Shown here one piece after another: positions 3,244 through 62,029 of a stretch of 64,000 nt of DNA. The notes below the pieces were generated by a model that was given only the letters and a program-made list of their open reading frames with translations, searched no databases and was not told the DNA's origin. The position numbers and the translations under genes are program-made. The stretch's first letter is position 1. Every line of letters starts with the position of its first letter. The stretch covers positions 1 to 64,000 of the forward strand of contig NZ_JAGFVL010000012.1 in the NCBI RefSeq assembly GCF_017599345.1. The letters are read 5' to 3'. Source of the stretch: Gracilibacillus suaedae (lineage in GTDB: Bacteria; Bacillota; Bacilli; Bacillales; Amphibacillaceae).

Positions 3244-3346
3244 TTATCTCGGTGCTAATTGTCTGTAAAAACTTCAAGTAGCACAAGGAAACTAAGTAGG
3301 GTCAAAAGCTAACACCCTGATATGTTTCGCTATGGATCACTTTATC
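3244..3346 (+). repeat. TTTATC-bounded structured repeat, family A copy 1 (second hairpin missing)
   Basis: Begins TTTATCTCGGTGCTAA and ends CACTTTATC. It contains the family core AAGCTAACACCCTGATA followed by TTTCGCTA, which pairs with the 5' TATCtCGGTGCTAA. The second hairpin of the full element is absent. It lies in the divergent gap between ytfP and murJ. Confidence 0.75.
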
Positions 3347-3451
3347 GTAGTTCGACGAGATTCACAAATTATCTGTCGAAATCAATAACAATCTGTGGAC
3401 TGCTATGTTAAAATATTAACGTTACATAATTTAATGAATAAAGGTGAAAGT

Positions 3452-5074
3452 ATGTCAAGTTCAAACTTTTTACGTGGTACACTATTGCTTACGGGAGCAA
3501 GTTTTTTATCTAAATTTTTAGGGATGATTTATGTTATTCCTTTTACTAATATGGTTGGAGAAACTGGAATGACACTTTATGGATTCGCATATATTCCATA
3601 TACTATATTGCTCAGTATATCGACAGTAGGTGTACCGTTAGCAGTTTCCAAATTTGTTGCAAGATATAACACACTAAATGATTATTATACAAGTATGAGA
3701 ATGTTGAAAATAGGTAGCATCTTAATGCTAATAACTGGCTTCATATCCTTTTTAATCATGTATTTTGGTGCTGATTTGATAGCCAATTGGACTTTAGATA
3801 AAGACAGTGAAGATATAACATTGCATGAAGTGAAATCTGTTATTCAAATGGTTAGCTTTGCTTTAATTATTATTCCTAGTATGGCTATTATGAGAGGATT
3901 TTTTCAAGGAAACCAATCAATGGGGCCTACGGCAGTATCTCAAGTAATCGAACAAATTATCAGAATTATGTTTTTACTTGTTTCTGTTTTTGTAGTTTTA
4001 AAAATTGTAGGTGGAACGAAAGTGACTGCAATTGGTTTCGCAGCATTTTCTGCTTTTGTTGGGGGGATCGCATCTTGGATTGTGCTAGCTTTTTACTGGA
4101 AAAAACGGAAAAAGTATCTGGACAGAGCGATTGAGAATCAAAATGAAAAAGTGACTATTCCTGTAAGAGATTTATTAAAAGAATTATTTCGCTATTCAGG
4201 TCCATTTGTACTTGTTGGAATAGCCATTCCCTTGTATCAACTTATCGATCAATTTACGTTCGATCATGCCATGTCTGCAATTAGTAAAGGCGATATCGCA
4301 AAAGTAGCTTTTTCTGCTTTTAGTGTGCAGGGGCATAAATTAGTAATCATACCTGTTACCATTGCGACAGGGTTATCACTTGCTTTAATACCGGAAATCA
4401 CCCATGCTTTTAATGCTAAAAAGATAGAGAAATTAAATGCACAAATTAATCAAGCTTTACAAATTATTATGTTTTTTGTTTTACCAGCAGTATTTGGCTT
4501 AATATTACTAGCCGATCCGATTTATGGTGGCTTATTTGGATTAGATAACCTAAATATAACTGGTGAAGTGTTTGCATGGTATGCACCAGTTGCGTTAACT
4601 TTTGCTTTCTTTACAGTTACGTCATATATTTTGCAAGGTATTGAAAAACAGAAGTTTACATTAATAAGCTTATCTGCAGGTATACTGACCAAAATATTAT
4701 TAAATTCAGTACTTATTCAAATGTTAGAAGCAAAAGGGGCTATTATTGCAACTCTTGTAGCAACTTTCATTGCAGTAATTCTTAACTTGTGGCAAATAAA
4801 AAAAGCCATCAACTTTAGTTACCGTAGATTTTATAAATTATCGCTATTAATGCTGATTTTTACAAGTATAATGGTTATTGTTTTGTTAGTAGTGAAATAC
4901 GTATTTGGCTTGTTCTTAGATGTTCATGAAAATCGAATCCATGCTGTACTAATGATGCTGATTGGTGTCACTGCTGGAGGTTCCGTTTATCTATATTTAG
5001 GTTATGCATCAACTTTATTTGAAAGGATCACAGGAAGAAGAATTGCTATTTTAGATCGATTAATCAGAAGGTAG
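3452..5074 (+). CDS. murJ: Lipid II flippase MurJ (YtgP), polysaccharide biosynthesis/MOP superfamily
   Basis: Moves undecaprenyl-linked peptidoglycan precursor (lipid II) across the cytoplasmic membrane. The 540-aa, about 14-TM product begins MSSSNFLRGTLLLTGASFLSKFLG, typical of the MVF/PST family, and matches the length of B. subtilis YtgP (544 aa). I chose the ATG at 3452 because GGTGAAAG lies directly upstream; an upstream in-frame ATG at 3395 has no RBS and would add 19 unusual residues. The RsuA-type gene follows after only 16 nt and is probably co-transcribed. Other members of this superfamily export polysaccharides, but neighbours and length favour MurJ. Confidence 0.88.
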   Translation: MSSSNFLRGTLLLTGASFLSKFLGMIYVIPFTNMVGETGMTLYGFAYIPYTILLSISTVGVPLAVSKFVARYNTLNDYYTSMRMLKIGSILMLITGFISFLIMYFGADLIANWTLDKDSEDITLHEVKSVIQMVSFALIIIPSMAIMRGFFQGNQSMGPTAVSQVIEQIIRIMFLLVSVFVVLKIVGGTKVTAIGFAAFSAFVGGIASWIVLAFYWKKRKKYLDRAIENQNEKVTIPVRDLLKELFRYSGPFVLVGIAIPLYQLIDQFTFDHAMSAISKGDIAKVAFSAFSVQGHKLVIIPVTIATGLSLALIPEITHAFNAKKIEKLNAQINQALQIIMFFVLPAVFGLILLADPIYGGLFGLDNLNITGEVFAWYAPVALTFAFFTVTSYILQGIEKQKFTLISLSAGILTKILLNSVLIQMLEAKGAIIATLVATFIAVILNLWQIKKAINFSYRRFYKLSLLMLIFTSIMVIVLLVVKYVFGLFLDVHENRIHAVLMMLIGVTAGGSVYLYLGYASTLFERITGRRIAILDRLIRR

Positions 5075-5090
5075 AAAGGAGGAAACCATT

Positions 5091-5792
5091 ATTCGTTTAG
5101 ATAAATTTTTAGCAAATAGGGGTTATGGTAGTCGCAAAGATGTCAAAACGTTAGTAAAAAAGAAGAGAATAACTGTTAATAATCAACTGATCCGTAAAGC
5201 AGATATTCAGATCGATCCGAACAAAGACCAAGTAAAGTGTGATGAAACAGTCATTCAGTATCAAGAATATATCTATTTAATGCTGCATAAACCAGCAGGA
5301 TATTTGTCTGCAACAGAAGATCAAAGGCAAAAAACGGTTCTTGATTTGATAAAAAAACAGGATAAAGTGTTAGCCCCTTTTCCTGTTGGACGTTTGGATA
5401 AAGATACGGAAGGCTTATTATTATTAACAAATGATGGTCAGTTGGCACATGAGCTGCTATCACCAAAAAAACATGTAGATAAAACCTATATAGCAAGGTT
5501 AGCGAAAACGATTAGTGATCAAGACGTTAAACAATTTGCTGAAGGTGTTATGTTAGAGGATGGTTATGTCACTAGACCTGCGAGATTAAAAGCTATCAAA
5601 GATAAAATGGTGGAAATTACGATTACAGAGGGGAAATTTCATCAAATCAAGCGAATGTTTGAAGCATTAGATAATAGTGTGTTGTATTTGAAGCGATTGT
5701 CAATGGGTAGCTTATATTTAGATGAGAAATTAAAACTTGGAGAATACCGGGAGTTAACAACAGAAGAGGTGGATCAATTAAGCAGCAAATAA
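5091..5792 (+). CDS. RsuA-family 16S rRNA pseudouridine synthase (YtzG-like), apparent ATT start
   Basis: Makes pseudouridine in 16S rRNA. The reading frame from 5091 codes an N-terminal S4 RNA-binding domain (RLDKFLANRGYGSRKDVK) and then the synthase domain with MLHKPAGYLSATED and the catalytic-Asp motif GRLDKDTEGLLLLTNDG. Total 233 aa, normal for the family. In this frame an upstream stop lies at 5061-5063, and no ATG, GTG or TTG occurs before Met64 (5280), which would delete the whole S4 domain. The codon aligning with the usual initiator Met is ATT at 5091, 7 nt after a perfect AAAGGAGG. ATT at 5088 is a less well-spaced alternative. It is therefore likely a rare AUU start. Confidence 0.85.
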   Translation: MRLDKFLANRGYGSRKDVKTLVKKKRITVNNQLIRKADIQIDPNKDQVKCDETVIQYQEYIYLMLHKPAGYLSATEDQRQKTVLDLIKKQDKVLAPFPVGRLDKDTEGLLLLTNDGQLAHELLSPKKHVDKTYIARLAKTISDQDVKQFAEGVMLEDGYVTRPARLKAIKDKMVEITITEGKFHQIKRMFEALDNSVLYLKRLSMGSLYLDEKLKLGEYRELTTEEVDQLSSK

Positions 5793-5795
5793 AAT

Positions 5796-5824
5796 ACCAG
5801 TATTAGACCAATACTGGTTGAGAA
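5796..5824 (+). terminator. Weak hairpin after the pseudouridine synthase gene
   Basis: ACCAGTATT-AGACC-AATACTGGT makes a 9-bp stem directly after the stop codon. The T-run is poor, so termination efficiency is doubtful. Confidence 0.45.
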
Positions 5825-5843
5825 TATATTCAAATAAATTATA

Positions 5844-6062
5844 TTAGGAGATTTTTACTTTTTTATTTGTGATTTTCCAACGTCCCCGATTTGGACTATT
5901 AACAAGCCCATTATATGCTAGCAAATGTAAATCTCGTTGTACGGTGCGATCAGTAATGCCAAACTCTTCTGCTATTTGGCTCGTGGTGACCGGTCCATTC
6001 TCTCTAATAAATAGGTAGACAGCCTTCACACGAGTTAGCATGCGGGTGGTTGATTGACTCAA
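5844..6062 (-). CDS. ytzE: DeoR-type HTH domain protein, YtzE-like
   Basis: A 72-aa protein consisting almost only of a DeoR/HTH_11 winged helix: VTTSQIAEEFGITDRTVQRDLHLLAYNGLV (residues about 25-54) followed by a short basic wing. It lacks the sugar-phosphate sensing domain of full DeoR regulators, as does B. subtilis YtzE, which lies in the same neighbourhood. It is probably a small DNA-binding protein; its targets are unknown. Confidence 0.8.
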   Translation of the reverse strand: MSQSTTRMLTRVKAVYLFIRENGPVTTSQIAEEFGITDRTVQRDLHLLAYNGLVNSPNRGRWKITNKKVKIS

Positions 6063-6204
6063 AAAATCACTCCTTCAAAGTTTTCAAGTTAAACCTTGTT
6101 AAAGTATATTCATGATGTACTTTCTATTTTACACTTAATTTAATGGATTTTCTACAGATAACTTTTAATTTACAGATAATTAAAAAAATCGAGGTGAATA
6201 TCTG

Positions 6205-7218
6205 ATGCACATACTTAAACAATTAATGAAAAAAGTTATCCATATTCCAAATTATATGCTGTTTATAACCAGTATTCTGTTAGTTCTACTTTCATCTATA
6301 TTAATCGTGTTCATTGAGAGAGATTCCTTTCCAACCATTTTTGATGGTTTCTGGTGGGTGATGACCACCGTAACAACAGTCGGATATGGTGATCTCTATC
6401 CGGAAACGGTTGGAGGCAGATGGCTAGCATTATTTCTTTATGTCTTTGGTATTGGTCTTATTGGTGTAGTAATAGGAAAAATAATAGATAGTCTGGCGAT
6501 TTACCGTAAAAAAAGACAGGAAGGTGATATTGTGTATAAAGGAAAAGGACATTATATTATTATCGGGTGGTCTCAAAAGGCGAAGTTTGCTATTAAGGAA
6601 ATGCTTGCAACCCATCAAGATATAGAAATTATTATTATCGACCAATTAGAGAAAGCACCAATGCTAGATACAAACATTTATTACATAAAAGGAAACCCAT
6701 CTGAGAAGGAGCCATTAGAGAAGGCGAATATTAAAGAAGCAAAATCAGTATTAATCTTTGCGGATGATAAGATTATGGAAGGTCAATTAGCTGATGGTAA
6801 AACATTATTAATAGCTTCTACTATTGAATCAATGGCACCAGAAGTACATACAATCGTCGAAGTTATGGAAGAAAACCATATTAAGAATTTTAAATATATG
6901 CAAATTGACGAATTTATTATATCAAATGAAACCATTTCTTCTTTATTTGTGCGATCAGCATTTCGAAATGGGATGTCTAATATTTTTGGACAATTGCTTC
7001 GGAGATCACAAGGTGATGACTTATTTTATGTCCCTGTCAAATCGTCATGGCATACATACAAAGATGCTTTCGATGATTTATTGAGTCAAGGAGCAACACT
7101 TGTTGCAGATCGTGACCACTTAAATATCAATCGAATGCTGAATGAGAGGTTACCTGATAACGCTGAATTGTTTGTTATATGTGATAAACCAACCTATCAG
7201 AAAATAATAAGAGGGTAA
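6205..7218 (+). CDS. Potassium channel with RCK/TrkA-N domain (YugO-like)
   Basis: A two-TM K+ channel of the MthK/YugO type. The selectivity filter TVGYGD is at residues 58-63, flanked by TM1 (about 17-37) and TM2 (about 72-92). A cytoplasmic Rossmann RCK domain follows (GHYIIIGWSQKAKFAIKEM, about 112 on), then a C-terminal segment like the B. subtilis YugO C-terminus. At 337 aa the length fits YugO (about 328 aa). RBS GAGGTGA lies 8 nt before the ATG. The next gene starts 4 nt after the stop, so they form an operon. In B. subtilis YugO supports biofilm electrical signalling; that role is only inferred here. Confidence 0.88.
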   Translation: MHILKQLMKKVIHIPNYMLFITSILLVLLSSILIVFIERDSFPTIFDGFWWVMTTVTTVGYGDLYPETVGGRWLALFLYVFGIGLIGVVIGKIIDSLAIYRKKRQEGDIVYKGKGHYIIIGWSQKAKFAIKEMLATHQDIEIIIIDQLEKAPMLDTNIYYIKGNPSEKEPLEKANIKEAKSVLIFADDKIMEGQLADGKTLLIASTIESMAPEVHTIVEVMEENHIKNFKYMQIDEFIISNETISSLFVRSAFRNGMSNIFGQLLRRSQGDDLFYVPVKSSWHTYKDAFDDLLSQGATLVADRDHLNINRMLNERLPDNAELFVICDKPTYQKIIRG

Positions 7219-7222
7219 TAAG

Positions 7223-7771
7223 ATGAATACTACAAGACATTACTTTATTGCGGTTGAAATCGACCATGAGATAAAAAAATGGCTTTTTCAGAATCAACAA
7301 AAGCTAAAGGATGACTTTCACTATAAAAATTGGGTGGATCAGAACGATTTTCATATTACTTTACATTTTTTCGGTGCAATTGACAGAACGAAACTAAATC
7401 GGGTAGCTGATCAATTGCAACGGTTGGACAATCAAGCTTTTACAGTGGAAATTGGTGGACTTTCTACCTTTGGATCAGCAAATAAGCCACGTGTATTATG
7501 GATAGAGGTGGAAAAACACCCTGACTTAGTACAATTACATCATGATATACAACAAATAGTCGGGAAGTATGTAACGATAGATAAACGACCTTTTACTCCC
7601 CATATAACACTTGCAAAAAAATGGGCAAGTGAACAACAATTACAGAATAAAGCCATTCTTAACCAACCGACTGGTGAAAAACATCTACACATCAATAAGG
7701 TAGTTATATATGAAATACACCCAGAAAAAAAGCAAAAATATCAAATTTGGCAGCAGATTGAACTGAAATGA
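7223..7771 (+). CDS. thpR: RNA 2',3'-cyclic phosphodiesterase ThpR (LigT/2H family, YtlP)
   Basis: A 2H phosphoesterase that opens 2',3'-cyclic phosphate RNA ends. Both family H-x-T motifs are present: HIT at residues 44-46 (DFHITLHFF) and HIT at 127-129 (FTPHITLAK). At 182 aa the length is normal. It is linked to the upstream channel gene (4 nt) and the downstream ytlQ-like gene (9 nt). The order ytlP-ytlQ-ytmP-trmB is the Bacillus arrangement. Confidence 0.9.
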   Translation: MNTTRHYFIAVEIDHEIKKWLFQNQQKLKDDFHYKNWVDQNDFHITLHFFGAIDRTKLNRVADQLQRLDNQAFTVEIGGLSTFGSANKPRVLWIEVEKHPDLVQLHHDIQQIVGKYVTIDKRPFTPHITLAKKWASEQQLQNKAILNQPTGEKHLHINKVVIYEIHPEKKQKYQIWQQIELK

Positions 7772-7780
7772 GGTGACACA

Positions 7781-8707
7781 GTGGCTCAGTTAATTAAATT
7801 GGAAAATTACATTTCGCGTTATCAACGGGATATTTTTCATTACCCTAGTCAATTTTCGCGATTAAAAAAGGAAAACTGGGAACGTTTAAAATATTTATGG
7901 GAAGATCAGAAGCAACTAACACTAGAAGTCGAAAATGAAGAAGAGTTAAAAGAATCTAATTTTTCGAAATGGCGTTCTTTCTTCAAGAGTCGATCTGAAG
8001 CAGAGGATATCGATATGGAAGAAGATACAGATGACATCGATTTTTTACCAGCCTCAAAGGAAGAGCTAAAACACTATTTCTTAGATACATTAATTCCATT
8101 TCAACTTAAATGGGCTTCGACAACAATTAATGAAATGTCTTTTATAAATCGCTCATATTATCAGGATTTTTTATTGAGATACTTTTTACAACGCATACCT
8201 GATACGCATTTACTCATGTATTTCCCCATTTTTCAATTGAAAAATGGACCAATGGAAGGGGATATAGTATTAATTAGCCCTTTAGAAATTGAAATTATCA
8301 CACTACTTGAAAAGCCAAGGAATCAGACAATTATTCCAAATGATTCAAGGTTGTGGTTTATAGAAGAAAACAATATACAAAGTAAATTTCTAAGTCCATT
8401 AATAAGTACGAAGCGGACAGAAACTATTATTCAAAGTATCTTAAAAAAATACCAACTAGATTTTCCAATTAAAAAAGTAGTGTTATCTCGAACAAATGTG
8501 ATCGATTATCAATTAGAACCATATCATACCAAATTCATTGATCGTGATCACCATGAGGAATGGCTCAAACAGAAACAGCAATTATTTACACCATTAAAGC
8601 ATCAACAGCTAAAAGTAGCTGATATATTATTAAAACATTGTGAGTCGATTGCTGTAAAAAGACCAGAATGGGAACAAGATGAGACGTCAGATTCTTTTTC
8701 GAAATGA
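7781..8707 (+). CDS. ytlQ: YtlQ-like hypothetical protein
   Basis: A 308-aa soluble protein without a recognised catalytic motif. It starts at GTG 7781 with GAGGTGAC 6 nt upstream; the stop of thpR is 9 nt before. A middle segment (about residues 148-200: FQLKNGPMEGDIVLISPLEIEIITLLE) resembles the core of nuclease-related NERD-type domains (a G-x-E-G-D-I-V-x-I pattern), but similarity is weak to the eye. An acidic linker lies at about 60-95. The assignment rests on position between ytlP and ytmP homologues and on length. Confidence 0.65.
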   Translation: MAQLIKLENYISRYQRDIFHYPSQFSRLKKENWERLKYLWEDQKQLTLEVENEEELKESNFSKWRSFFKSRSEAEDIDMEEDTDDIDFLPASKEELKHYFLDTLIPFQLKWASTTINEMSFINRSYYQDFLLRYFLQRIPDTHLLMYFPIFQLKNGPMEGDIVLISPLEIEIITLLEKPRNQTIIPNDSRLWFIEENNIQSKFLSPLISTKRTETIIQSILKKYQLDFPIKKVVLSRTNVIDYQLEPYHTKFIDRDHHEEWLKQKQQLFTPLKHQQLKVADILLKHCESIAVKRPEWEQDETSDSFSK

Positions 8708-8847
8708 CATAAAAAGATATATTTTTTGTCGAAAATTAAATTTTCTCTTGAAATTATACCTGATTTTGCGTTAATCTATTATTACTATTCCCTTTTTAAA
8801 GATAAAGAGGTTAAGAGACTATTAAGAGGAATTGAGGGTGACAAGCT

Positions 8848-9651
8848 GTGGAACATATTCTAGGTGAAGATTGGACGATTATCCCTGCTGGTGGATCAAC
8901 CGGTGCGGCTTATTATGCCCAATCGAATCAGAAAAAGCTATTTTTAAAACGAAATTCATCTCCATTTTTGGCTGTATTATCTGCACAAGGTATTGTGCCA
9001 AAACTTGTTTGGACAAAGCGCCTTGAGAACGGTGATGTAGTAACAGCTCAACAATGGCTGGATGGCAAAGCCTTAAATATTGAAGAAATGCAGCACCCTA
9101 AAGTAGCAAAATTATTAAGTAAAATCCATCATTCCTCTGAATTATTAGATATGTTGTTACGGATAGAAAAAACTACTATCATACCAGATCAAATGTTAGT
9201 AAGAGTGAAGCAATTTGTACAAGGTAACAAATTTGCACGTCATTCACTTACGATCTATAAGGCGATTAAATATTTGGAAGAGCGGTTATTGGATGTTTAT
9301 TATGATCAGCAAGTGGTGTGCCATTGTGATTTAAATCATCACAATTGGATGTTATCTAAAAATGGAGAATTATATTTAATTGATTGGGATAATGCGCGTG
9401 TCGGAGATCCAGCTATGGATATAGGAAGAATTCTTCAATCCTATATACCAAAACAGGAATGGGACCAGTGGTTAGAACACTATGGCATGGAAAATAGCCG
9501 GTATTTAATGCAACGTATGCACTGGTATTTACTAGTTGAAGAAATTATTGGTTATGTATGGTCAGAAAATCGACATAGAATAAAAGAAGCCGATACTCAT
9601 TTAAATGAGTTGAATCAGCTTCTTCATCAAATTAATGATTGGAGTCTTTGA
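8848..9651 (+). CDS. ytmP: YtmP-like phosphotransferase (aminoglycoside/choline kinase fold)
   Basis: A small-molecule kinase of the APH/ChoK superfamily; substrate unknown. The catalytic loop is HCDLNHHN (His159, Asp161, Asn166) and the metal-binding motif is LIDWDNA (Asp179/Asp181), followed by DPAMDIGRIL. At 267 aa it matches B. subtilis YtmP. It starts at GTG 8848, 6-7 nt after a GAGGGTGA RBS. Its 3' end overlaps the convergent ytzH gene by 20 nt. It is not likely to be an antibiotic resistance gene, since it is part of the conserved Bacillus block. Confidence 0.85.
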   Translation: MEHILGEDWTIIPAGGSTGAAYYAQSNQKKLFLKRNSSPFLAVLSAQGIVPKLVWTKRLENGDVVTAQQWLDGKALNIEEMQHPKVAKLLSKIHHSSELLDMLLRIEKTTIIPDQMLVRVKQFVQGNKFARHSLTIYKAIKYLEERLLDVYYDQQVVCHCDLNHHNWMLSKNGELYLIDWDNARVGDPAMDIGRILQSYIPKQEWDQWLEHYGMENSRYLMQRMHWYLLVEEIIGYVWSENRHRIKEADTHLNELNQLLHQINDWSL

Positions 9652-9916: not shown

Positions 9917-10071
9917 AACTTATCTCCCACCTTTATGAGTAGCATGTTCTAAAAAAGAAAATAGTATACAGAAATTCAAAGTAGAAGGCTTTTGCTAAAT
10001 AATTGGCAAAAGCCGATTTAGTGTATGATTAAAGTGACAAAATGGCAAAATGAAACTTAAAAGATACGCTT

Positions 10072-10168
10072 GTGTCACGGTGCTAATCGTCTCAAATTTG
10101 ATCAAATCAAAGAAGAAATGTAAGGTTCACGACGTTTCGCTAACCATTAGTATCACCATTGATAAAGA
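10072..10168 (+). repeat. Degenerate family A repeat, copy 2
   Basis: Starts GTGTCACGGTGCTAATCGTCT like the family head and contains TTTCGCTAACCATTAGTATCACC, but the CTAACACCCTGATAAG arm is lost. It sits between ytzH and trmB. Confidence 0.5.
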
Positions 10169-10194
10169 CTTACTGTATAAAGGAGCTAAATTTC

Positions 10195-10836: not shown

Positions 10837-10873
10837 AAATAGGCAGACCACCCCGCCAAACTGCGAACTAGTT

Positions 10874-11060
10874 GAGCGGACATTGAGTACGTTATTTGAC
10901 GGAATAACACCCGTTTTTCGGGTTTGGCGGACATTGAATCCCTTAATTGGTTCATTTTGACTTCAATTAGCACTATTTTCGATGAATAGCGGAATAGATG
11001 TCCGCGACCACACTAAAAACGGCACTTTTGTTACAAATAGCGGAACAAATGTCCGCGCTC
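10874..11060. repeat. GCGGACAT repeat, family C copy 1
   Basis: Bounded by inverted ends GAGCGGACATT and AATGTCCGCGCTC, with internal GGCGGACATTGAATCC and ATAGCGGAATAGATGTCCGCG blocks. No transposase is encoded. Related copies lie near 14298-14435 and 54877-55060. It is a non-autonomous palindromic intergenic repeat. Confidence 0.7.
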
Positions 11061-11138
11061 AGCCCAGATTTACCTGGAAATCCACGTTACTGCTCAATTT
11101 GTGTTTATTGTTCATCATTTTATCCTTTTCTCACCTAA

Positions 11139-14258: not shown

Positions 14259-14297
14259 CTATAGTTGAATTAACATGACTGCTTAGGTTAGACCTAG

Positions 14298-14435
14298 GTC
14301 GAACATTGAATCTGTTATTTGTGCGTTTTTAAGGCGCACGCGTACATCTATTCTGCTATTTATCAAAATAGTGATCAATTAAGCCAAAATGAATCGAATA
14401 ACAGCTTACCCAACACCAAATAACGTACTGAGCAG
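14298..14435. repeat. Degenerate GCGGACAT repeat, family C copy 2
   Basis: GTCGAACATTGAATCTGTTATTTGTGCG matches the GCGGACATT..TTCCGTTATTTGTGACG pattern of the 54.9-kb copy, and CGTACATCTATTCTGCTATTTATC matches its inner GCGGACACCTATTCCGCTATTCGTC. It lies between ytpP and ytpQ and is decayed. Confidence 0.55.
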
Positions 14436-18168: not shown

Positions 18169-18311
18169 TTTATCATGGTGCTAAACGTATGTATAGCTCC
18201 CAATTCATGCTTCAATTAACACAAGGAAGCAAGTGTGGGGGATAACAGCCCAAGTACTCTGATAAGTTTCGCTAATGATTAGTACACACAGAGGTCATAG
18301 TTCACTTTATC
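18169..18311 (+). repeat. TTTATC-bounded structured repeat, family A copy 3
   Basis: Head TTTATCATGGTGCTAAACG, inner arm with CATGCTTC..GAAGCAAGTG pairing, CTGATAAGTTTCGCTAATGATTAGT, tail TTCACTTTATC. Both ends show TTTATC. It sits in the sftA-murC gap. Confidence 0.75.
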
Positions 18312-18368
18312 GAATAGTTCAAAATGATTAATGAACATTCAACATCAATTCGGTATATAATGGCAGAA

Positions 18369-18430
18369 AGTGAGACTTTCATCAGTGAGGCTTTTTCACT
18401 CATCACTGATGATCAGCGCCGTGATAAAAT
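18369..18430 (-). repeat. Short family A repeat, copy 4 (inner arm deleted)
   Basis: Read on the minus strand: TTTTATCACGGCGCTGATC joined directly to the second hairpin (TCATCAGTGATGAGTG with CCTCACTGATGA) and the tail AAGTCTCACTTT. The first hairpin arm is missing, so this is a minimal version of the element in opposite orientation to copy 3. Confidence 0.65.
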
Positions 18431-18584
18431 ACTTTTTCGAGTAATAAATATGCATAAAGACTTGACACAAATGGAGATTTATTAGAAGATAATTTCTTGT
18501 GTTATATAAATTCTAAAAGATGATTAGAAAAATAATCATGATGAGACGGGTTAATTTTATCATTGATTTTGGAGGTTCTGTTTT

Positions 18585-20107: not shown

Positions 20108-20277
20108 GGCTATTCAGATGGAATTGTCATTTTGAAAGTTAAACCCTACGCAAAGGGAAGTGGGCAGCCGGAGTGGTGGTCAAACAGTCATATATTTCAT
20201 AATGGCTACTAGAAGAATCGCAGATCTACTTAGCAGGTAGTGATAAGAACTGAGCGGGTTTACCCAGCTTTTCTTAT
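20108..20277 (+). repeat. Structured intergenic repeat, family B copy 2
   Basis: Opens with GGCTATTCAGATGGAATTGTC and ATTTTGAAAG (as at 280-310) and ends GAGCGGGTTTACCCAGCTTTTCTT, a terminator-like end as in copy 1. The middle (TATTTCAT.., GCAGATCT) resembles copy 3 near 41.2 kb. The preceding 19985-20060 stretch (GCCTCGTCCGCGAAGTCC, GGCGACTTCACGAATCGCC) is another repeat fragment partly echoed near 59670 and, for CTTGCCGATTGGT, at 1861. Confidence 0.55.
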
Positions 20278-21360: not shown

Positions 21361-21499
21361 TTTATCACGATACTAATCGTCTGTAAGCGACCGACTTCAA
21401 GCTTCAAGTAACACGAGGATAACAGGGGCTAACAACCTGATAAGTTGTTAATGATCAATGGGCGTTAAACACTCTCTCTGATCATAGTCTCACTTTATA
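21361..21499 (+). repeat. TTTATC-bounded structured repeat, family A copy 5
   Basis: Head TTTATCACGATACTAATCGTCTGTAAG, inner arm CTTCAAGCTTCAAGTAACACGAGG, GCTAACAACCTGATAAG, second hairpin ATGATCAATGGGCG..CTCTGATCAT, tail AGTCTCACTTTATA. It lies between the ytxH terminator and ytxJ. Confidence 0.75.
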
Positions 21500-21557
21500 A
21501 GATGCTAACCATCAGTGTGGATTAAAAATTCCCTACTGATGGGACTTTTACTTTATC
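21492..21557 (+). repeat. Partial family A repeat, copy 6, fused to copy 5
   Basis: The CTTTATA end of copy 5 doubles as the head of this copy (TTTATAAGATGCTAA). Only the second hairpin (CCATCAGT..ACTGATGG, arms at 21509 and 21533) and the tail GACTTTTACTTTATC remain. It ends 12 nt before the first possible ytxJ start codon. Confidence 0.65.
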
Positions 21558-30971: not shown

Positions 30972-30989
30972 CCCAAGTCAATTTCCATT

Positions 30990-31140
30990 TTTCACGGTGC
31001 CAAACGTCTGTAATACCCCCACTTCAAGCTTCAAGTAACACCAAGAAGCTAAGTGTGGGGAACAGATGCTAACACCCTGATAAGTTTCGCTAATGATCAG
31101 TGGGGGTTAAAACCCTTACTGATCATATTCTCACTTTATA
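30990..31140 (+). repeat. TTTATC-type structured repeat, family A copy 7 (most complete)
   Basis: Shows the full architecture: TTCACGGTGCCAA pairs with GCTAACACCCTGA; CGTCTGT (31004) pairs with ACAGATG (31062); CCCCCACTT..AGCTTC pairs with GAAGCTAAGTGTGGGG; then TTTCGCTA, and a second hairpin ATGATCAGTGGGGGTT / AACCCTTACTGATCAT; tail TCACTTTATA. Confidence 0.8.
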
Positions 31141-31246
31141 TCATTATAACGTAGAATGAAAGCAGTGAACAGCAAGAAAAGCTTAGTTGCCCGTCTAGTT
31201 TCTGGGCACTTGTGTGGATAAACACCCAATGTATATCTAGTAAAGA

Positions 31247-34282: not shown

Positions 34283-34419
34283 TCGATACCCTCCTAAATA
34301 ATCCACTACATATTATAGCACAACAGTCAATTAGTTTTGTTATAAATTTACCAAAAAAATATTGCATTTTTATTACGAATATGCTAATAATGATATAACA
34401 ATTAAACATCCATAATACG

Positions 34420-34640
34420 ATGAAGGATTGAAGTAGTGGAAGATTCCCTTTTATAGAGAGCTGGCGGTTGGTGCAAGTCAGTAAATAATCTTACCATGAA
34501 TTACGTTCTGGAGTATCTTCATAATGAATGAAGACGGTGTGGTCTGCATCGTTATTTCCTTAAGTGGCAGTTCATTAGAATTGCAACAAGGGTGGTACCG
34601 CGAATATCTCGTCCCTTATATGAGGGAGGAGTTTTTTTTA
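34420..34640 (+). promoter_or_regulatory. T-box leader (tyrosine) of tyrS
   Basis: A tRNA-sensing riboswitch. The T-box sequence AAGGGTGGTACCGCG is at 34588-34602; its ACC/GGTGG core binds the uncharged tRNA NCCA end. Upstream, GAGAGCTGGCGGTTGGTGCAAGTC is stem I. The probable specifier codon is UAC (34502-34504, in GAATTACGTTC), matching Tyr. The terminator is CTCGTCCCT-TATATG-AGGGAGGAG plus eight Ts (34608-34639). Uncharged tRNA-Tyr should favour the antiterminator and tyrS expression. Confidence 0.93.
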
Positions 34641-54808: not shown

Positions 54809-54876
54809 CGCATTTGGTTTTAGTGTAAAAAGCATAAATTGCAAGTAACGTGTATTCTCGTAAAAATCGGGCATTA

Positions 54877-55060
54877 GTGCGGACATTCCTTCCGTTATTT
54901 GTGACGAAAGTGGCGTTTTTAGGCTGCTTGCGGACACCTATTCCGCTATTCGTCGAAAAACACGTCAATTTTTAACGAAAGGAATCAAATAAGGGATTAA
55001 ATGTCCGCCAACATCGAAAAAAAGGTGATATTGTCCCAAATACCGCACTAAATGTCCGAC
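54877..55060. repeat. GCGGACAT repeat, family C copy 3
   Basis: Ends TGCGGACATT and AATGTCCGACCA, internal TTGCGGACACCTATTCCGC and TTAAATGTCCGCCAACATC. It shares TTCCGTTATTTGTGACG-type blocks with the 10.9 and 14.3 kb copies. It fills the whole gap between ytcJ and the NAD kinase gene. Confidence 0.7.
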
Positions 55061-55087
55061 CAACATAACAGTAGGATAACGTTCTAC

Positions 55088-55888: not shown

Positions 55889-56041
55889 TTTCTTTCCTCC
55901 TAACAAGCATATGTATCTGTTCTCATCTTATCATGATTTATAAGGCTATCCCATTGATAACTTTGATTATTTTGTGTTGATTGTTACGACTTTATGATTA
56001 ATCTAGTATTTACTCGTAAATAATAAGGATGAGGTGAGAAT

Positions 56042-56578
56042 ATGCTGATTGTCTTATTATTGATTATAATCGTTCTTTTCATTATCATACTGTTAATTTT
56101 TCTAATGTCGAAAGTATATATATCATTGGACTGGCAATGGGATGAAGAGGATAAAAATGTCCAATTTAAAATCAGTATATTGCGTTTTACTTTTTATCAA
56201 GAGACAATCGATTTCACTAAGTTAGATTTACCATCTTTCGAAACAGATAATAATGGGGATATAAAGAAGAGGTATCATCTTGTAAAAAGTTTGTTGAAAA
56301 AATCAGAAATCGAAACTTTACACACCAAAACAATTGTTGCTACATACGATCCATCGATTACAGCATATCTTTACGTGTCTATCACCACGTTAGCTGAATG
56401 GATTAAGGCTCATTATAGTAGTAAAAGAGACGTTGAAATTAATATAGCAGCAGATTTTGAACAAGAAACTTTTCAATCAGTAGGTGAGTGCATGATATCG
56501 GTAAAATTGAGTAAGACTATCAAAGAAATGAAGAAAATGAAAAAAATACGGAAGGAGTCAGTAAATGATGGAAGATAA
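56042..56578 (+). CDS. ytfI: DUF2953 protein YtfI
   Basis: 178 aa: N-terminal TM (about 1-23, nearly pure Ile/Leu), then a cytoplasmic or extracellular beta-rich DUF2953 region with VYISLDWQWDEEDKNVQFKI and TTLAEWIKAHY. It overlaps ytfJ by 14 nt, giving translational coupling. In sporulating Bacilli the ytfIJ pair is expressed in the forespore; function of YtfI is unknown. Confidence 0.85.
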   Translation: MLIVLLLIIIVLFIIILLIFLMSKVYISLDWQWDEEDKNVQFKISILRFTFYQETIDFTKLDLPSFETDNNGDIKKRYHLVKSLLKKSEIETLHTKTIVATYDPSITAYLYVSITTLAEWIKAHYSSKRDVEINIAADFEQETFQSVGECMISVKLSKTIKEMKKMKKIRKESVNDGR

Positions 56579-57029
56579 TAACCAAAATGTGCACCCGTTA
56601 GAAGGATTTATGAATTTAACGATGGCTAATTTAAAACAATTAATTGAAGTGGATACAGCAATTGGGAAACCAATAGAAGTTCCAGATGGCAGTTTGATCA
56701 TTCCATTATCCAAAGTAAAATTTGGCTTTGCAGCTGGAGGCAGTGAGTTTGTACCTGGTGGAGGACAAGATCAGCAGGGTGAAGAAAGTGGGCAAGAGGA
56801 TAATCAATCAGAATCGATCATCCCGTTTGGTGGTGGAAGTGGTGGAGGTGTTTCTATCATACCTTCAGCGTTTGTCATTGCTAATAAAGAAGGAGTCCGA
56901 CTCTTACCACTCAATGAATCCACGACCGCTTATGAGAAAGTGTTAGAGAAAAGCCCGCAAGTGATTGACCAGGTTTTGGATATGTTAAAACAAAGAAGAG
57001 ATGGAAAGCAGCAAGGTAATGATATGTAA
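56565..57029 (+). CDS. ytfJ: Sporulation protein YtfJ (GerW family)
   Basis: 154 aa. Family features: HPLEGFMNLTMANLKQLIEVDTAIGKPIEVPDGSLIIPLSKVKFGFAAGG, a glycine/acidic linker (about 65-100: PFGGGSGGGVSI), and IPSAFVIANKEGVRLLPL, here listed in shorter conserved blocks. GerW-type proteins act in spore germination/dormancy. Tandem ATG codons at 56565/56568 follow AAGGAG. Confidence 0.88.
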   Translation: MMEDNNQNVHPLEGFMNLTMANLKQLIEVDTAIGKPIEVPDGSLIIPLSKVKFGFAAGGSEFVPGGGQDQQGEESGQEDNQSESIIPFGGGSGGGVSIIPSAFVIANKEGVRLLPLNESTTAYEKVLEKSPQVIDQVLDMLKQRRDGKQQGNDM

Positions 57030-57068
57030 TGCTTCTCAGTAGACAATTTGATTTCACTGCCTTCATAA

Positions 57069-57193
57069 TATAGTGAGACTTCCATTAGTGGGATTTACAC
57101 CACTGATGGTTAGCGAAACTTATCAGGGTGTTAGATCCATGCTTATCACTAGGATCCGTTGCAAAAACTTGCAGGAAGTTAGCACCGTGATAA
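57069..57193 (-). repeat. TTTATC-type structured repeat, family A copy 8
   Basis: Minus strand: TTATCACGGTGCTAACTTCC, an inner arm with a different sequence (GATCC..GGATC), CTAACACCCTGATAAG, TTTCGCTAACC, second hairpin CATCAGTGG..CCACTAATG, tail AAGTCTCACTATA. The outer stem is kept while the inner arm is replaced. It lies between ytfJ and ytxK. Confidence 0.75.
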
Positions 57194-57236
57194 GATAGGC
57201 AGTGAATCATTTTGTATATTGTGGAGGGAACAAAAA

Positions 57237-58214
57237 ATGTCGTTTGATATAGAAAAAGCTTTTTCAGATTTGGATCAACTAACATCTACTATAGAAGAAA
57301 CAGAAAATGAACCATATTTAGAAAGTTTAATTTTTGCGTTACGTGCTATCCAAACTGAAGAAGCATTAGATTTACCTACTAAAAAGACAGCAGATAGTTT
57401 AGCATCACTTAAAAAATCATTTTATAGTGAAGATACTACAAGTGAATCGATTCGAAAAGTCATTCAGCTAGCCTTAATTAAAGGAATGAAGGGATCTACT
57501 CAACATCAACACGTTGTAACGCCTGACAGTGTCGCTATGTTTATGGGCTATTTTATTCAAAAGTTAATGCCTAAGACTAACCATTTACGACTATTTGATC
57601 CAGCAAGTGGTGCGGCGAATTTGTTAACTGCTGTGATTAATCAGGTAGAAGCAGATGTTACGGGATATGGAAGTGAAATTGACCCGACATTAATTCAATT
57701 AGCAGTAGAAAGTTCGAACTTGCAAGAGGTTGAGGTTGAATACTTTCACCAAGATAGTTTAACTCCATTATTGTTAGAACCGGTTGATGCGGTTATAGCT
57801 GATTTACCTGTCGGATATTATCCAGATGATGAACAAGCGGCCAAATTTGAATTAAATGCTGATCAAGGACATGCTTATTCACATCATTTATTTATCGAAC
57901 AGAGTATGATCTATACAAAAGATGCAGGTTACTTATTATTTGTTATACCTAATTTCCTTTTTACTAGTGACCAAAGTGATAAATTACAAAAATACCTACG
58001 CAATAATGCCCATATATTAGCATTGCTACAATTACCATTATCGATGTTTTCTTCCGAACAGCATGCTAAAAGTATCTTAGTCTTACAGAAGCAGGGTAAG
58101 GATACAAAGCCACCAAAGCAAACATTAATGGCCCAATTGCCATCCTTTAAAGATGTCAATAAGACCCATAATATCCTTCAAAAAATCGATAATTGGTTTA
58201 AAACTGAAAAGTGA
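57237..58214 (+). CDS. ytxK: YtxK, class I SAM-dependent methyltransferase-like protein
   Basis: 325 aa with an N-terminal helical domain (1-95) and an N6-adenine-methylase-like fold: FMGYFIQKLMPK, LFDPASGAANLLTAVI (SAM motif I), GSEIDPTLIQLA, and IADLPVGYYPDD in the place of the catalytic D/N-P-P-Y/F motif. I chose ATG 57237 (GGAGGG 9 nt upstream). Bacillus YtxK lies directly before ackA, as here. The substrate is unknown; no restriction genes are nearby. Confidence 0.88.
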   Translation: MSFDIEKAFSDLDQLTSTIEETENEPYLESLIFALRAIQTEEALDLPTKKTADSLASLKKSFYSEDTTSESIRKVIQLALIKGMKGSTQHQHVVTPDSVAMFMGYFIQKLMPKTNHLRLFDPASGAANLLTAVINQVEADVTGYGSEIDPTLIQLAVESSNLQEVEVEYFHQDSLTPLLLEPVDAVIADLPVGYYPDDEQAAKFELNADQGHAYSHHLFIEQSMIYTKDAGYLLFVIPNFLFTSDQSDKLQKYLRNNAHILALLQLPLSMFSSEQHAKSILVLQKQGKDTKPPKQTLMAQLPSFKDVNKTHNILQKIDNWFKTEK

Positions 58215-58241
58215 GAAAAATCAGAAAATAAAAATTTTACG

Positions 58242-58298
58242 AAGCAAACGTTACCATTTGATATTCCGGTTGCAAACTTATTCTGACGGTGTTTAAAT
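58242..58298 (+). promoter_or_regulatory. ackA promoter with upstream cre site
   Basis: cre candidate AAGCAAACGTTACCA (58242-58256) differs at one position from WTGNAANCGNWNNCW. Promoter: TTGCAA (58270-58275), 17-nt spacer, TTAAAT (58293-58298). The cre centre is about 56 nt upstream of the predicted start, the position of the activating cre of B. subtilis ackA. Confidence 0.65.
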
Positions 58299-58380
58299 GG
58301 ATATGGGAATGTTTGAACAGATGTAAAAACATTGATTTTTTTAGTCAGGGTAAGTAAACGAAAGAATGAAAGGATTGAAA

Positions 58381-59571
58381 ATGTTGCGTAAAATTTTAGC
58401 TGTAAACGCTGGAAGTTCTTCACTGAAGTTTCAACTAATTGAAATGCCGGAAGAAAAAGTGTTGTCAAAAGGACTAGTTGAACGAATTGGCATTGCTGAT
58501 TCCGTTTTTTCTATTGAATTTGATGATAAGGAAGATGAAGAAACTAGAGATATTCCTGATCATGCTGTAGCTGTCAAGCTCTTACTTGATAAATTAACAT
58601 CATTTGGTGTGATTAAAAGTTTGGATGAAATTGATGGTATTGGGCATCGTGTTGTACATGGTGGAGAGAAATTTAATGATTCGGTCGTGATTACGGATGA
58701 AGTAATTAAGGAAATTGAAGAAGTATCTGAGCTAGCACCGTTGCATAACCCAGCAAACTTAACAGGTATTCGTGCTTTCCGTGAAGTGTTACCAGATGTT
58801 CCTTCTGTAGCAGTATTTGATACAGCATTTCACCAGACAATGCCTGAGCAATCTTATTTATATAGTTTACCATATGAATATTATCAAAAATATGGCATCC
58901 GTAAATACGGATTTCATGGTACATCACATAAATACGTCTCTGAACGTGCTTCAGAGTTAATGGGTGTACCTTTGGAACAATTACGTCTGTTATCTTGTCA
59001 CTTAGGAAATGGCGCAAGTATCGCAGCAATTGAAAAAGGTAAGTCAATTGATACTTCTATGGGCTTTACACCTTTAGCTGGTGTGACAATGGGGACAAGG
59101 TCTGGAAATATTGACCCGGCCTTAATTCCATATATCATGGAAAAAACTGGACAATCTGCTTCAGAAGTAATGAATGTGTTAAACAAGAAAAGTGGTATGC
59201 TAGCTTTATCCGGATTTTCTAGTGATTTACGAGATATCCAGGAGAAAGCAGAAAATGGTGACAATCGTGCTGAATTAGCACTTCAAGTATTTGCAGAAAG
59301 AATTCATAAATACATTGGTTCTTACGCAGCTAGAATGCATGGTGTGGATGCAATCATCTTTACGGCTGGTGTAGGTGAAAATAGTATAACCATTCGTGAA
59401 CGTGTATTAAAAGGATTAGAGTTTATGGGTGTATACTGGGATCCAAGCCTAAATAACATTCGCGGTAAAGAAACATTTGTAAACTATCCGCATTCACCTG
59501 TAAAAGTAATAGTTATCCCAACTAATGAGGAAGTAATGATTGCTAGAGATGCTGTTAGGTTGACACAATAA
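58381..59571 (+). CDS. ackA: Acetate kinase
   Basis: Converts acetyl phosphate + ADP to acetate + ATP in overflow metabolism. 396 aa, normal length. [12 protein letters not shown] at the N-terminus, [66 protein letters not shown]: all acetokinase motifs in order. ATG 58381 follows AAAGGA. Likely CcpA-activated. A terminator follows. Confidence 0.96.
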
Positions 59572-59583
59572 ATTTATTGTAAA

Positions 59584-59625
59584 AAAGATCTTTATCCTAT
59601 TTAAATAGGGAAAGATCTTTTTTAC
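59584..59625. terminator. Terminator after ackA
   Basis: AAAAAAGATCTTTATCC and GGGAAAGATCTTTTTTA form a strong stem with A/T tracts. Confidence 0.85.
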
Positions 59626-59812
59626 TTGTATAACGAATGTTTACGCAAACGACCAGAGATATGCGACTTCACGAGTCTTCATACAGGAGAAAGGAAGATT
59701 TCTTTTGATAATGATTAAGCCTACTATTATAATTCAATGTTCAACATAGTAATAACTGAAACTTACTTATCTTGAGATAAAAAAGTATGGGAAATTATTT
59801 GACAAAATTGCT

Positions 59813-59840
59813 TGAAAGTTTGGGAAATTTCAGTTATATT
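59813..59840 (+). promoter_or_regulatory. Probable sigma-A promoter of the peptide-binding lipoprotein gene
   Basis: TTGAAA (59813-59818), 16-nt spacer, TATATT (59835-59840), about 60 nt before the ATG. The rest of 59626-59900 shows only a fragment (GCGACTTCACGAGTC) shared with the repeat near 20030. Confidence 0.5.
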
Positions 59841-59900
59841 ATAACATGATTATATATTACATAATCTTTACAAATATTTAAAAGAGGGGGGTTTAGATTA

Positions 59901-61523
59901 ATGAAATCTAAACATTTAGTTTTAATGTTATCTCTTCTGTTTGTGCTATCGATTGCACTTGTTGCTTGTGCAGGTGACGGTGAACCGGAAGAAACAACAG
60001 ATGAAAACGATTCAGCAGAAGAAGGCAGCGAGAACGAAGAAGCTGCAGGTTCCGGAGGAGACTTAGTGATAACTGTACCATCTGATGTAGTTTCACTATC
60101 AGCTCAAGGGCAAAATGACGTACCTTCAAGTAATGTACGTGAAAATATTTATGAAACACTAACTACGCTGAACGAGGATCAAGAAATTGAGCCAGGTTTG
60201 GCGACTGATTGGGAACAAGTTGATGATGTAACATGGGAATTCCATCTGCAAGAAGGTGTCACGTTCCATGATGGTGCTGAATTCAACGCTGAAGCAGTTA
60301 AAAAGAGTTTTGATCGTTTAGCAGATGAGAAAATTGCTTCTCCGTATGTATTCTTAATAGAACAAGTTGAAAGTATTGAAGTGGTTGATGATTACACCGT
60401 TAGATTTAATTTAGAGTATCCATATGCTCCATTATTAGCTAATCTAGCGCATAGTGGTACAGGGATTATGAGTCCTACTATTATTGATAAAGATTATGAA
60501 CAACTAGAAGATGGTGGCGATGTTGACGAATATATCAACAAAGAACCTAGTGGTACAGGACCATTTAAATTAGAAGATTGGACTGCAGGTGAGAGCGTAA
60601 CATTAACACCATATGAGGATTATTGGGGAGACAATGCTAAATTAGACTCTGTTCAATTTAAAGTAGTATCAGAACAAAGCTCACGAGTAGCAGAGTTAGA
60701 AACAGGTGTGACTCATGTAGCGGATCAAATTGGACCGAATAATATGTCTCGGGTTGATGGTCTAGCAGATGCAAGTGTTTTACAATCTCCAAGCGTTTCG
60801 GTATCTTATATCGGATTTAATACAGAGAAAGAACCATTTGATGATGTCCGAGTGCGTCAAGCACTTTCTATGGCAGTGGATAAAGATGAGATCATCAATG
60901 GTGTAATGAATGGTGTAGGTATCCCTGCAATTGGTGCTTTAGCGCCACCTGTATTTGGATATGATGATTCTATTGAAGGTTTACCGTATGATGTAGAAAA
61001 GGCGAAAGAATTATTAGCTGAAGCAGGATATGAAGATGGGTTTGAAACTACTATCTGGACAAATGATAATGAGCAGCGTGTTGATACAGCAGTAGCACTT
61101 CAAGCACAATTAGGCGAGATTGGTATCGATGTTGAGATTCAAGAGTTAGAATGGGGAGCATACTTAGAACGTACTTCTAATGGAGAGCATGATATGTTTA
61201 TTCTAGGTTGGTCTACTGTAACTGCTGACGCTGATTATGGTTTATATCCATTATTCCATAGCTCTCAGCAGGGTGAGCCAGGAAACCGTTCTTTCTTAGC
61301 TGATGATGAAGTAGATGAATTATTAGATGAGGGACGTCGTGAAACAGATCCTGCAGCACGTCAAGAAATTTACACTGAAGTACAGGAAAAGCTTGTTGAT
61401 CTTGCTCCTATGATATATACGCATCACCAAGAGTATCTACTAGGTGTAAGTGATTCAGTTAAAGACTTCAGCATCAATGCACAAGGTATCTACCAAATTA
61501 AAGATGCATATATTGAAGAATAA
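59901..61523 (+). CDS. Oligopeptide/dipeptide-type ABC transporter substrate-binding lipoprotein
   Basis: 540-aa SBP_bac_5 family receptor. Signal with lipobox LVAC (Cys23), an acidic linker (24-52), then ENIYETLTTLNEDQEIEPGLATDWEQVDDVTWEFHLQEGVTFHDG (in pieces: the typical PGLA..W, W-x-F-x-L-x-x-G-V-x-F-H-D-G signature), EPSGTGPFKLEDW, VRQALSMAVDKDEI and LFHSSQQGEPGNRSF. A very acidic protein. GAGGGGGG precedes the ATG. No permease is adjacent on this strand; it may serve the convergent importer genes at 62.7-64 kb or act with a distant one. Confidence 0.9.
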   Translation: MKSKHLVLMLSLLFVLSIALVACAGDGEPEETTDENDSAEEGSENEEAAGSGGDLVITVPSDVVSLSAQGQNDVPSSNVRENIYETLTTLNEDQEIEPGLATDWEQVDDVTWEFHLQEGVTFHDGAEFNAEAVKKSFDRLADEKIASPYVFLIEQVESIEVVDDYTVRFNLEYPYAPLLANLAHSGTGIMSPTIIDKDYEQLEDGGDVDEYINKEPSGTGPFKLEDWTAGESVTLTPYEDYWGDNAKLDSVQFKVVSEQSSRVAELETGVTHVADQIGPNNMSRVDGLADASVLQSPSVSVSYIGFNTEKEPFDDVRVRQALSMAVDKDEIINGVMNGVGIPAIGALAPPVFGYDDSIEGLPYDVEKAKELLAEAGYEDGFETTIWTNDNEQRVDTAVALQAQLGEIGIDVEIQELEWGAYLERTSNGEHDMFILGWSTVTADADYGLYPLFHSSQQGEPGNRSFLADDEVDELLDEGRRETDPAARQEIYTEVQEKLVDLAPMIYTHHQEYLLGVSDSVKDFSINAQGIYQIKDAYIEE

Positions 61524-61528
61524 GTATA

Positions 61529-61564
61529 AAAAAGGAAGCCTACTGTGTTGGCTTCCTTTTTTAG
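61529..61564 (+). terminator. Terminator after the peptide-binding lipoprotein gene
   Basis: AAAAGGAAGCC-TACTGTGTT-GGCTTCCTTTTTT. Confidence 0.85.
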
Positions 61565-61763
61565 TATTGAAAATGAGAATATCGATAAGGCAAAGTTCTT
61601 TAAGACTAGTTTGATGTCCATACATACGTGATACGGTAATTATTTGAATAACCTACAAACAGAGCAGTGTTCAAAACGTTAAGGTGAGCATATCGAGGAG
61701 AATGTGATTATCTTGTTATAAATCTTAAGGACTATAAAAAATGAAAAAAACGATAAGAAACTG

Positions 61764-61927
61764 TTTATCACGGTGTTAAACGTCCGTAATACCAATACAC
61801 CACTTCCAGATTCGGGCATAAGCAAAGAAGCTAACGGGTATAAACGGACGCTAACTTCCTGATATGTTTCGCTAATAATCAGTGGGGGTTTTAACTAAAC
61901 TCCAACTGATTGAAGTCTAGCTTTATC
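61764..61927 (+). repeat. TTTATC-bounded structured repeat, family A copy 9
   Basis: Head TTTATCACGGTGTTAAACG, CGTCCGT pairing perfectly with ACGGACG (61852), GCTAACTTCCTGATATG, TTTCGCTAA, second hairpin AATCAGTGGGGGTTT / AACTCCAACTGATT, tail AGTCTAGCTTTATC. Compared with copy 7 the CGTCTGT/ACAGATG helix carries compensatory changes. Confidence 0.8.
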
Positions 61928-62029
61928 ATGTGCTAAACGCCTGTAAGACCTCCGCTTCAGTTTCAATTAACAAAGGGATATTAGGTTTTTAGGAATGATA
62001 GCGCCAACACCCTGATCAGTAGCGAAACT
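61921..62029 (+). repeat. Family A repeat, copy 10, tandem to copy 9
   Basis: Begins with the CTTTATC that ends copy 9: TTTATCATGTGCTAAACGCC and TGTAAGACCTCCGCTTCAG, then GCGCCAACACCCTGATCAG and TAGCGAAACTT. The second hairpin is lost. Confidence 0.65.

Follow-up and report, generated by a model that had tools for sequence, protein, structure and literature searches.

The double-hairpin repeat bcr1 (Bacillus cereus repeat 1) is flanked by TTTAT at both ends, and insertion sequences (ISs) of the IS200/IS605 family insert 3' of an intact target oligonucleotide without duplicating it. bcr1 belongs to group A of the bcr repeats (bcr1-bcr3), measures 147-167 bp, contains conserved stem-loops, resembles miniature inverted-repeat transposable elements (MITEs) and occurs in high copy number at mostly chromosomal positions (PMC6542083, PMC2267715, PMC3446304, PMC3733652). 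Its mobility has been linked to the TTTAT motif (PMC6542083) and reports confine it to the B. cereus group (PMC8725734). The IS200/IS605 members IS608 and ISDra2 have hairpin ends and prefer the lagging-strand template (PMC6006769), and ends-only palindrome-associated transposable elements (PATEs) can be moved in trans (PMC7290912). Repetitive extragenic palindromes (REPs) and bacterial interspersed mosaic elements are short, dispersed and hairpin-forming, and REP-associated tyrosine transposases (RAYTs or TnpA-REP) are thought to mobilize them in trans as single-stranded DNA (PMC6006769). Here, we describe a dispersed two-hairpin repeat of 130-165 bp, bounded by TTTAT on both sides, in a 64,000-nucleotide stretch of Gracilibacillus suaedae (contig NZ_JAGFVL010000012.1, positions 1 to 64,000; hereafter the window). 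Judging from sequence comparisons, it is probably a MITE-like mobile element, non-autonomous and non-coding, that lacks terminal inverted repeats and travels as a single strand of DNA in folded form.

The original prediction of at least ten copies of a dispersed two-hairpin repeat in the window is borne out by both the excess of its head motif and the matches to a covariance model, with several of the copies having decayed. Allowing three mismatches, the head motif TTTATCACGGTGCTAA matches 12 times in the window against 0.76 expected, a number equalled in none of 100 shuffles. Eight remain once three matches within long open reading frames (ORFs) and a fourth that is an antisense overlap are set aside. 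The structural covariance model R2 recovers seven window copies at E < 4e-5; model R1 uses sequence only. The window holds five end-to-end copies, two of which have one hairpin shortened or decayed, and five truncated, decayed or internally deleted ones (Table 1). Hairpin 1 is long, and at its base the left TTATC pairs with a central GATAA; a short stem closes hairpin 2 and adjoins the right TTTAT. The RNA fold of 30980-31150 reaches -58.5 kcal/mol (z -7.8). The mini-copies at 18365-18469 and 21494-21556 retain only the left end and hairpin 2. Parts of the earlier description had to be amended. The boundary is TTTAT and not TTTATC, as the base 3' of the right TTTAT is A in 48, T in 35, C in 21 and G in 15 of 119 copies (93 of the 97 rows of alignment A6 plus 26 named-locus rows of alignment A3, with each end moved by at most 2 nt to optimize its fit to TTTAT, which favors TTTAT). 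The base of the second hairpin proved to be TGATCAGT, CCATCAGT or CAATCAGT plus its complement. The claim that all copies are intergenic stands for nine of them; the end of the degenerate copy at 10071-10178 overlaps a TTG-started ORF call at 10159.

The repeat family is mobile, to judge from three observations: unrelated loci carry near-identical copies, relatives span the junction without a copy, and tandem copies have 5 nt in common. Copies have appeared at new sites and relatives lack them. The top identity between copies at unrelated loci is 99.4% in genome G194, 97.5% in G298 and 98.7% in G002, and homology between near-identical copies stops at the TTTATs. Copies in G012 are at most 94.2% alike, and seven copies in G013 reach 91%. 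The one-contig genome G002 had a recent burst: it carries one subfamily in 20 full-length copies, several of which reach 98-99% identity (157-nt query). All 20 are located between 0.2 and 2.64 Mb of the 4.51-Mb contig. A search for empty sites, in which 17 joined flanks were queried against five genomes of one genus, revealed relatives spanning the junction; 11 of the 17 loci were aligned and six were left out of the alignments. At loci I, J and K the relative extends only ~16-28 nt beyond the junction on one side, and at locus H, where the copy interrupts a PDDEXK_5 gene, the relative might be a paralogue. Furthermore, ten tandem junctions in eight genomes (G009, G010, G066, G464, G441 and G244, with two each in G424 and G645) show an overlap of exactly 5 nt in the match lists, as expected if a copy had inserted into the end of its neighbor; a junction in G003 that lies beside an overlapping match was left out of this count. 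Among the junctions read, TTTAT is common to both copies in G010, G066, G464 and both window pairs. In the window, the copies at 61764 and 61922 share TTTAT 61922-61926, and in the mini-copy at 21494 the TTTAT in common with its neighbor is followed by the CTAACCATCAGT hairpin 2 and the tail ACTTTAT. Two junctions in an array of Gracilibacillus massiliensis (G009, L067 4449-4631) have TTTAC in common, perhaps reflecting a shifted target preference.

The empty sites also allow the exchange point to be traced. At eight of the 11 aligned loci, the relatives carry a 5-mer other than TTTAT, and at four of these eight the copy retains the relative's non-TTTAT letters on one side. The left and right 5-mers are GTTAT and TTTAT at site A (one relative), TTCAT and TTTAT at site G (one relative), TTTAT and TTTAC at site C (two relatives) and TTTAT and TTTAG at site E (one relative, two further ones differing in sequence there). 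Because target positions 1-3 end up on the left and position 5 on the right, the comparison places strand exchange at these four sites inside the 5-mer, to the right of position 3 or 4 but to the left of position 5, without target duplication. A duplication would have made both sides equal to the target, and a cut 3' of the whole 5-mer would have brought position 5 to the left. A DDE-type MITE with TTTAT target duplication would account for the direct TTTAT at both ends and for the identical sides at four other loci with a non-TTTAT relative. Yet, left and right differ at the four traceable loci as crossover, not duplication, predicts. Moreover, terminal inverted repeats are absent, none of the four traceable sites has a target duplication (the four other loci being undecided) and the strand bias described below likewise argues against such a MITE, so that we consider it highly improbable. 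The hybrid left and right cores at the traceable sites look like those of a crossover site, as would form when a tyrosine or serine recombinase integrates a circular element with TTTAT as core, and the right position 5, which would derive from the target, is T in 112 of the 119 copies. By itself, however, integration of this kind predicts neither the strand bias nor a conserved DNA fold, and it appears unlikely.

Across the 119 copies, variation in the left 5-mer falls mainly on positions 3 and 4 (13 and 15 copies), positions 1-4 of the right 5-mer vary in 3, 3, 4 and 3 copies, and position 5 is T equally often on the left and on the right. Since right positions 1-4 are fairly constant and position 5 is nearly always T, the target seems to be recognized on both sides of the cut. 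Some observations weigh against an exchange inside the 5-mer. The traceable sites number only four, of which three rest on one relative each, and site A has a 2-nt difference nearby. At site C, G551 carries a different element with a right TTTAT, although two empty relatives have TTTAC. In addition, left position 5 is C in seven of the 119 copies. Loci F, H, I and K, where the relative is non-TTTAT and the copy has TTTAT on both sides, are uninformative or mildly unfavorable: either the relative has since diverged from a TTTAT target, or the exchange model fails there. Separately, the elements of L186 (G551) and L170 (G298) differ from each other but occupy one and the same chromosomal TTTA^T site, as if each had inserted there independently.

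In Bacillota, the leading strand is G-rich. The TTTAT strand of the element occurs on the locally G-rich strand in 54 of 69 copies (39 of 48 in G012 and 15 of 21 in G002), compared to 539 of 1,173 (46%) intergenic TTTATs from these stretches, the majority of which had been selected for holding copies (p = 7e-8). Given the G-rich leading strand, the element strand would correspond to the lagging-strand template. Relative to the neighboring genes, no clear bias is observed (23 copies co-directional, 19 opposite, 9 convergent and 18 divergent), and none of the 69 copies lies inside an ORF of at least 70 amino acids. The sampled stretches have opposite skew in different parts of the chromosome, and gene strand tracks skew in 13 of 14 of them, L240 being the exception. 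Three points temper this bias: local GC skew serves as a proxy, with no mapped origin; the G012 copies are at most ~94% alike and hence not fresh; and a mixed set of 154 copies, excluding repeats and short contexts, displays a weaker bias (101 of 154, or 66%, vs 53% of all TTTATs).

The two-hairpin fold is strongly supported by covariation once the consensus fold is imposed on the alignments, the original prediction having named a lack of significant pairs as grounds for abandoning it; RNAalifold alone proposed no structure on them. In alignment A3, 84.5% of the cells are paired against 35-42% when the fold is slid along the alignment, and 125 cells are double-changed against 53+/-8 in shuffles. 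The corresponding values for alignment A4 are 86.8% against 32-45%, and 191 against 59+/-7. Double changes occur in 40 of the 51 pairs of A4 and in 17-26 in its slid versions; columns 108/161, for instance, hold U-A in 24 sequences and A-U in five. The shuffle controls ignore relatedness, and the slid controls, which retain it, are handicapped because the tested fold was derived from the consensus, which tends to beat slid versions. One alignment step kept 86 of 133 matches. Less favorable are the 26 pairs of A3 with any double change, against 27 in a slid version, and the GATTGG subfamily, in which the pairing to TTTAT is mostly lost. One copy (L144 1501-1712) has ~57 extra nucleotides in hairpin 2, so its loop may tolerate cargo.

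Both strands of the element fold about equally well. The ratio of G.T to A.C cells is 202:125 in A3, or 119:125 without GT-majority columns, and 77:78 in A4, or 67:77 without them. As a selected RNA should favor G.U, this lack of a G.T excess over A.C suggests that the fold is conserved as DNA, with some copies possibly still acting in transcripts. That the repeat is primarily a conserved regulatory RNA, such as an attenuator or a stabilizer of untranslated regions, would agree with its intergenic, strongly folded copies and with the report that transcripts often include bcr repeats (PMC3446304). Empty sites, tandem arrays, the mixed gene arrangement, the lack of an Rfam match and the absence of a G.U excess outside GT-majority columns all contradict it, and we deem it very unlikely, a secondary RNA role being possible.

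Which enzyme moves the repeat was approached through the two classes usually proposed. An ends-only PATE moved by an ordinary TnpA(IS200) Y1 transposase would fit the hairpins at the ends, the missing target duplication, the fixed short target and the strand bias, and PF01797 (Y1) matches occur in 13 of 15 genomes, some of them (G000, the window genome, and G010) as fragments only. However, G002 and G013 have no PF01797 match, although G002 had the recent burst. Only two of 18 Y1 loci have any match to model R3 in their stretch (L204, 36.5 bits at ~1.1 kb distance; L206, 18 bits), neither of which brackets the Y1 gene. The exchange inside the 5-mer at the four traceable sites, and not after it, is also at odds with a PATE. 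Finally, a 157-nt query of the single contig of G002 revealed no autonomous IS with these ends, i.e., no place where a gene separates a left end from a right end; at 1921086, the left and right pieces directly adjoin each other, representing an internal deletion. Together, these observations make a PATE an unlikely explanation.

A REP-like element moved by a RAYT was suggested by the original prediction, which advised looking for a REP-type transposase. Of 40 genomes, 19 have matches to a RAYT-like profile derived from six proteins (A8), some matches being fragments, with three matches in G001 and two each in G006, G009, G353 and G415 (one of the 40 genomes, G005, had no element copies). Each of the six profile rows hits NCBIfam REP_Tyr_transpos, with the first row scoring under the curated cut-off. 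Among 25 matched loci, one (in G450) has a copy within ~1.5 kb, at ~0.6 kb; the other 24 have none in the fetched stretch. The profile has no match in G002, G012, G013, G010, G298 and G551, and a GT[AG]G foot was not found at the hairpins in the alignments read. The proposed transposase link is thus not supported, and movement by a RAYT is improbable. The lack of any candidate also counts against a mobile element moved in trans: G002 has no match to either Pfam Y1 or the RAYT profile at E <= 1e-3, and no mobilizing enzyme was found by searches aimed at Y1 and RAYT, none being aimed at IS110, serine or tyrosine recombinases. Possibly, the enzyme has been lost, is plasmid-borne, is too divergent or belongs to a different class.

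If the repeat moves as a folded single strand, as we favor, the strand bearing TTTAT would be the lagging-strand template, so that the insertion target would be single-stranded DNA at the replication fork. A transposase or recombinase that acts on single strands and is provided in trans would cut and join TTT(A)^T at both ends, and the central GATAAG or GATTGG, by pairing with the left end, may help to place the exchange point. The empty sites, the traceable exchange point, the strand bias and the one-contig genomes with recent copies render the question testable, and these same features point away from the usually proposed enzymes.

The family extends well beyond the window. As the large searches scored only the best candidates per genome and model E-values are rough, copy numbers are lower bounds: the window genome has at least 126 R2 matches at E <= 1e-3, degenerate ones counted, among the best 150 of 1,633 candidates scored. 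It contains both main subfamilies, and its top R3 match (L160) belongs to the CCCGATTGG type. Within the genus, matches are present in 15 of 17 genomes, the window genome included, and within the family, covariance-model matches are present in 103 of 159 genomes and 33 of 46 genera. In the class and phylum samples, whose assignment to Bacilli and Bacillota was derived from the genus, 47 (R2) and 52 (R3) of 398 genomes, and 42 of 398 genomes from 34 of 267 genera, respectively, have matches; 39 of these 42 genomes fall outside the class. A scan with a 27-base pattern in named genomes, which may leave out the window genome's own records, retrieved 60 stretches (59 from Gracilibacillus and one from Saliterribacillus). 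The 28 class-scan copies that were read, and nine more from genomes beyond the class, preserve the plan, in which TTTATC (or a similar sequence) is followed by an inner TAAC/CTAA, then by GATAAG or GATTGG, ACTAA (or a similar sequence), hairpin 2 and a tail resembling AAGTTTCACTTTAT. The absence from Rfam was confirmed for the window and 20 loci, where no family matches the repeat above its gathering score; sub-threshold matches of two elements look like chance. Should the phylum sample be typical, this would be a large class of intergenic DNA in the phylum that is absent from Rfam. More tentatively, we consider a phylum-wide superfamily of single-strand elements conceivable. In this reading, bcr1 may form one twig of it, and an enzyme other than the known Y1 transposases, or a host single-stranded DNA enzyme, would move its members through TTTA^T exchange at the fork. 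A phage search with one element gave no match, and plasmid searches returned matches in Pseudalkalibacillus, Peribacillus asahii and one Klebsiella record only. The latter, on a Klebsiella grimontii plasmid (CP079755.1, 221561-221631), matches half an element with 78.7% identity over query positions 87-161, which could be due to transfer, contamination or chance.

Table 1. Copies of the two-hairpin repeat in the 64,000-nucleotide window.
Feature	Position	Strand	Evidence and layout
Best end-to-end copy	30988..31139	+	R2 155 bits, E=3.8e-32; R3 114.9 bits; hairpin 1 ~30987-31085, linker TTTCGCTAA, hairpin 2 ~31093-31126, tail ends TTTAT
End-to-end copy, first of tandem pair	61764..61926	+	R2 113.5 bits
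Degenerate second tandem copy	61922..62021	+	R1 61930-62021, E=1.7e-7; no R2/R3 match
End-to-end copy, first of tandem pair	21361..21498	+	R2 95.3 bits
Internally deleted mini-copy	21494..21556	+	Read by eye; no R2/R3 match on its strand
End-to-end copy, hairpin 1 shortened	57068..57194	-	R2 94.8 bits
End-to-end copy, hairpin 2 partly decayed	18169..18310	+	R2 89.7 bits
Mini-copy, left end joined to hairpin 2	18365..18469	-	R2 32.4 bits, E=3.8e-5
Truncated copy, hairpin 1 present, hairpin 2 mostly gone	3243..3345	+	R2 47.8 bits, E=1.6e-8
Very degenerate copy	10071..10178	+	Head motif with 2 mismatches; R1 E=0.005; no R2/R3 match

The window has several other features. A second intergenic repeat consists of inverted 221-nt stretches at 10871-11091 and 54844-55064 that are 75% alike and have no Rfam match in the window scan. 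A GCGGACATTGAAT-like motif common to both stretches is also found at 10922 and 14294 (14294-14321). A 34-nt direct repeat (281-314 and 20109-20142) is 91% identical, and a 5S rRNA (37-153) and a T-box leader (34411-34619) are present. At 62638-62680, a perfect, terminator-like 21-nt inverted repeat with a 1-nt gap sits between the converging ORFs 62138-62488(+) and 62684-63688(-), within a doubtful ORF call of 130 amino acids.

Compared to the known systems, the label of a bcr/REP-like mobile structured repeat, as originally proposed, holds for mobility, structure and absence from Rfam, whereas the link to a REP-type transposase is not supported. The target-site mechanism, the strand bias and the spread through the phylum go beyond that prediction. 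The element is a 130-165 bp two-hairpin unit bounded by TTTAT, whereas REPs are GT[AG]G-footed palindromes; REPs flank the RAYT gene, whereas a copy of the present element stands beside only one of the 25 RAYT-like loci. Of the described elements, bcr1 is the closest by description, and the family may belong to it; we do not file the family as bcr1. The likeness lies in the length of ~150 bp, TTTAT at both ends, the two hairpins, and mobility with variable loci and empty sites in relatives (11 of 17 loci). The host range differs from that reported for bcr1, as the element occurs in Gracilibacillus and 42 of 398 phylum-sample genomes. In the open-licence literature searched, no description of such a family beyond the B. 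cereus group came to light. Four elements used as queries against plasmids gave no B. cereus-group match, but bcr1 is mostly chromosomal. The 'BCR1m' sequence in PMC9031142, considered as a bcr1 sequence, is an unrelated primer. From IS200/IS605, the element differs in being gene-less, in occurring in G002 and G013 without a Y1 match (and without a matching autonomous element in G002), and in exchanging between positions 3 and 5 of the 5-mer at four sites. Both have hairpins and a bias to the lagging-strand template (54 of 69 copies here, with local skew as proxy). By analogy with IS608 and ISDra2, the element may well work like their type of single-strand transposition (PMC6006769).

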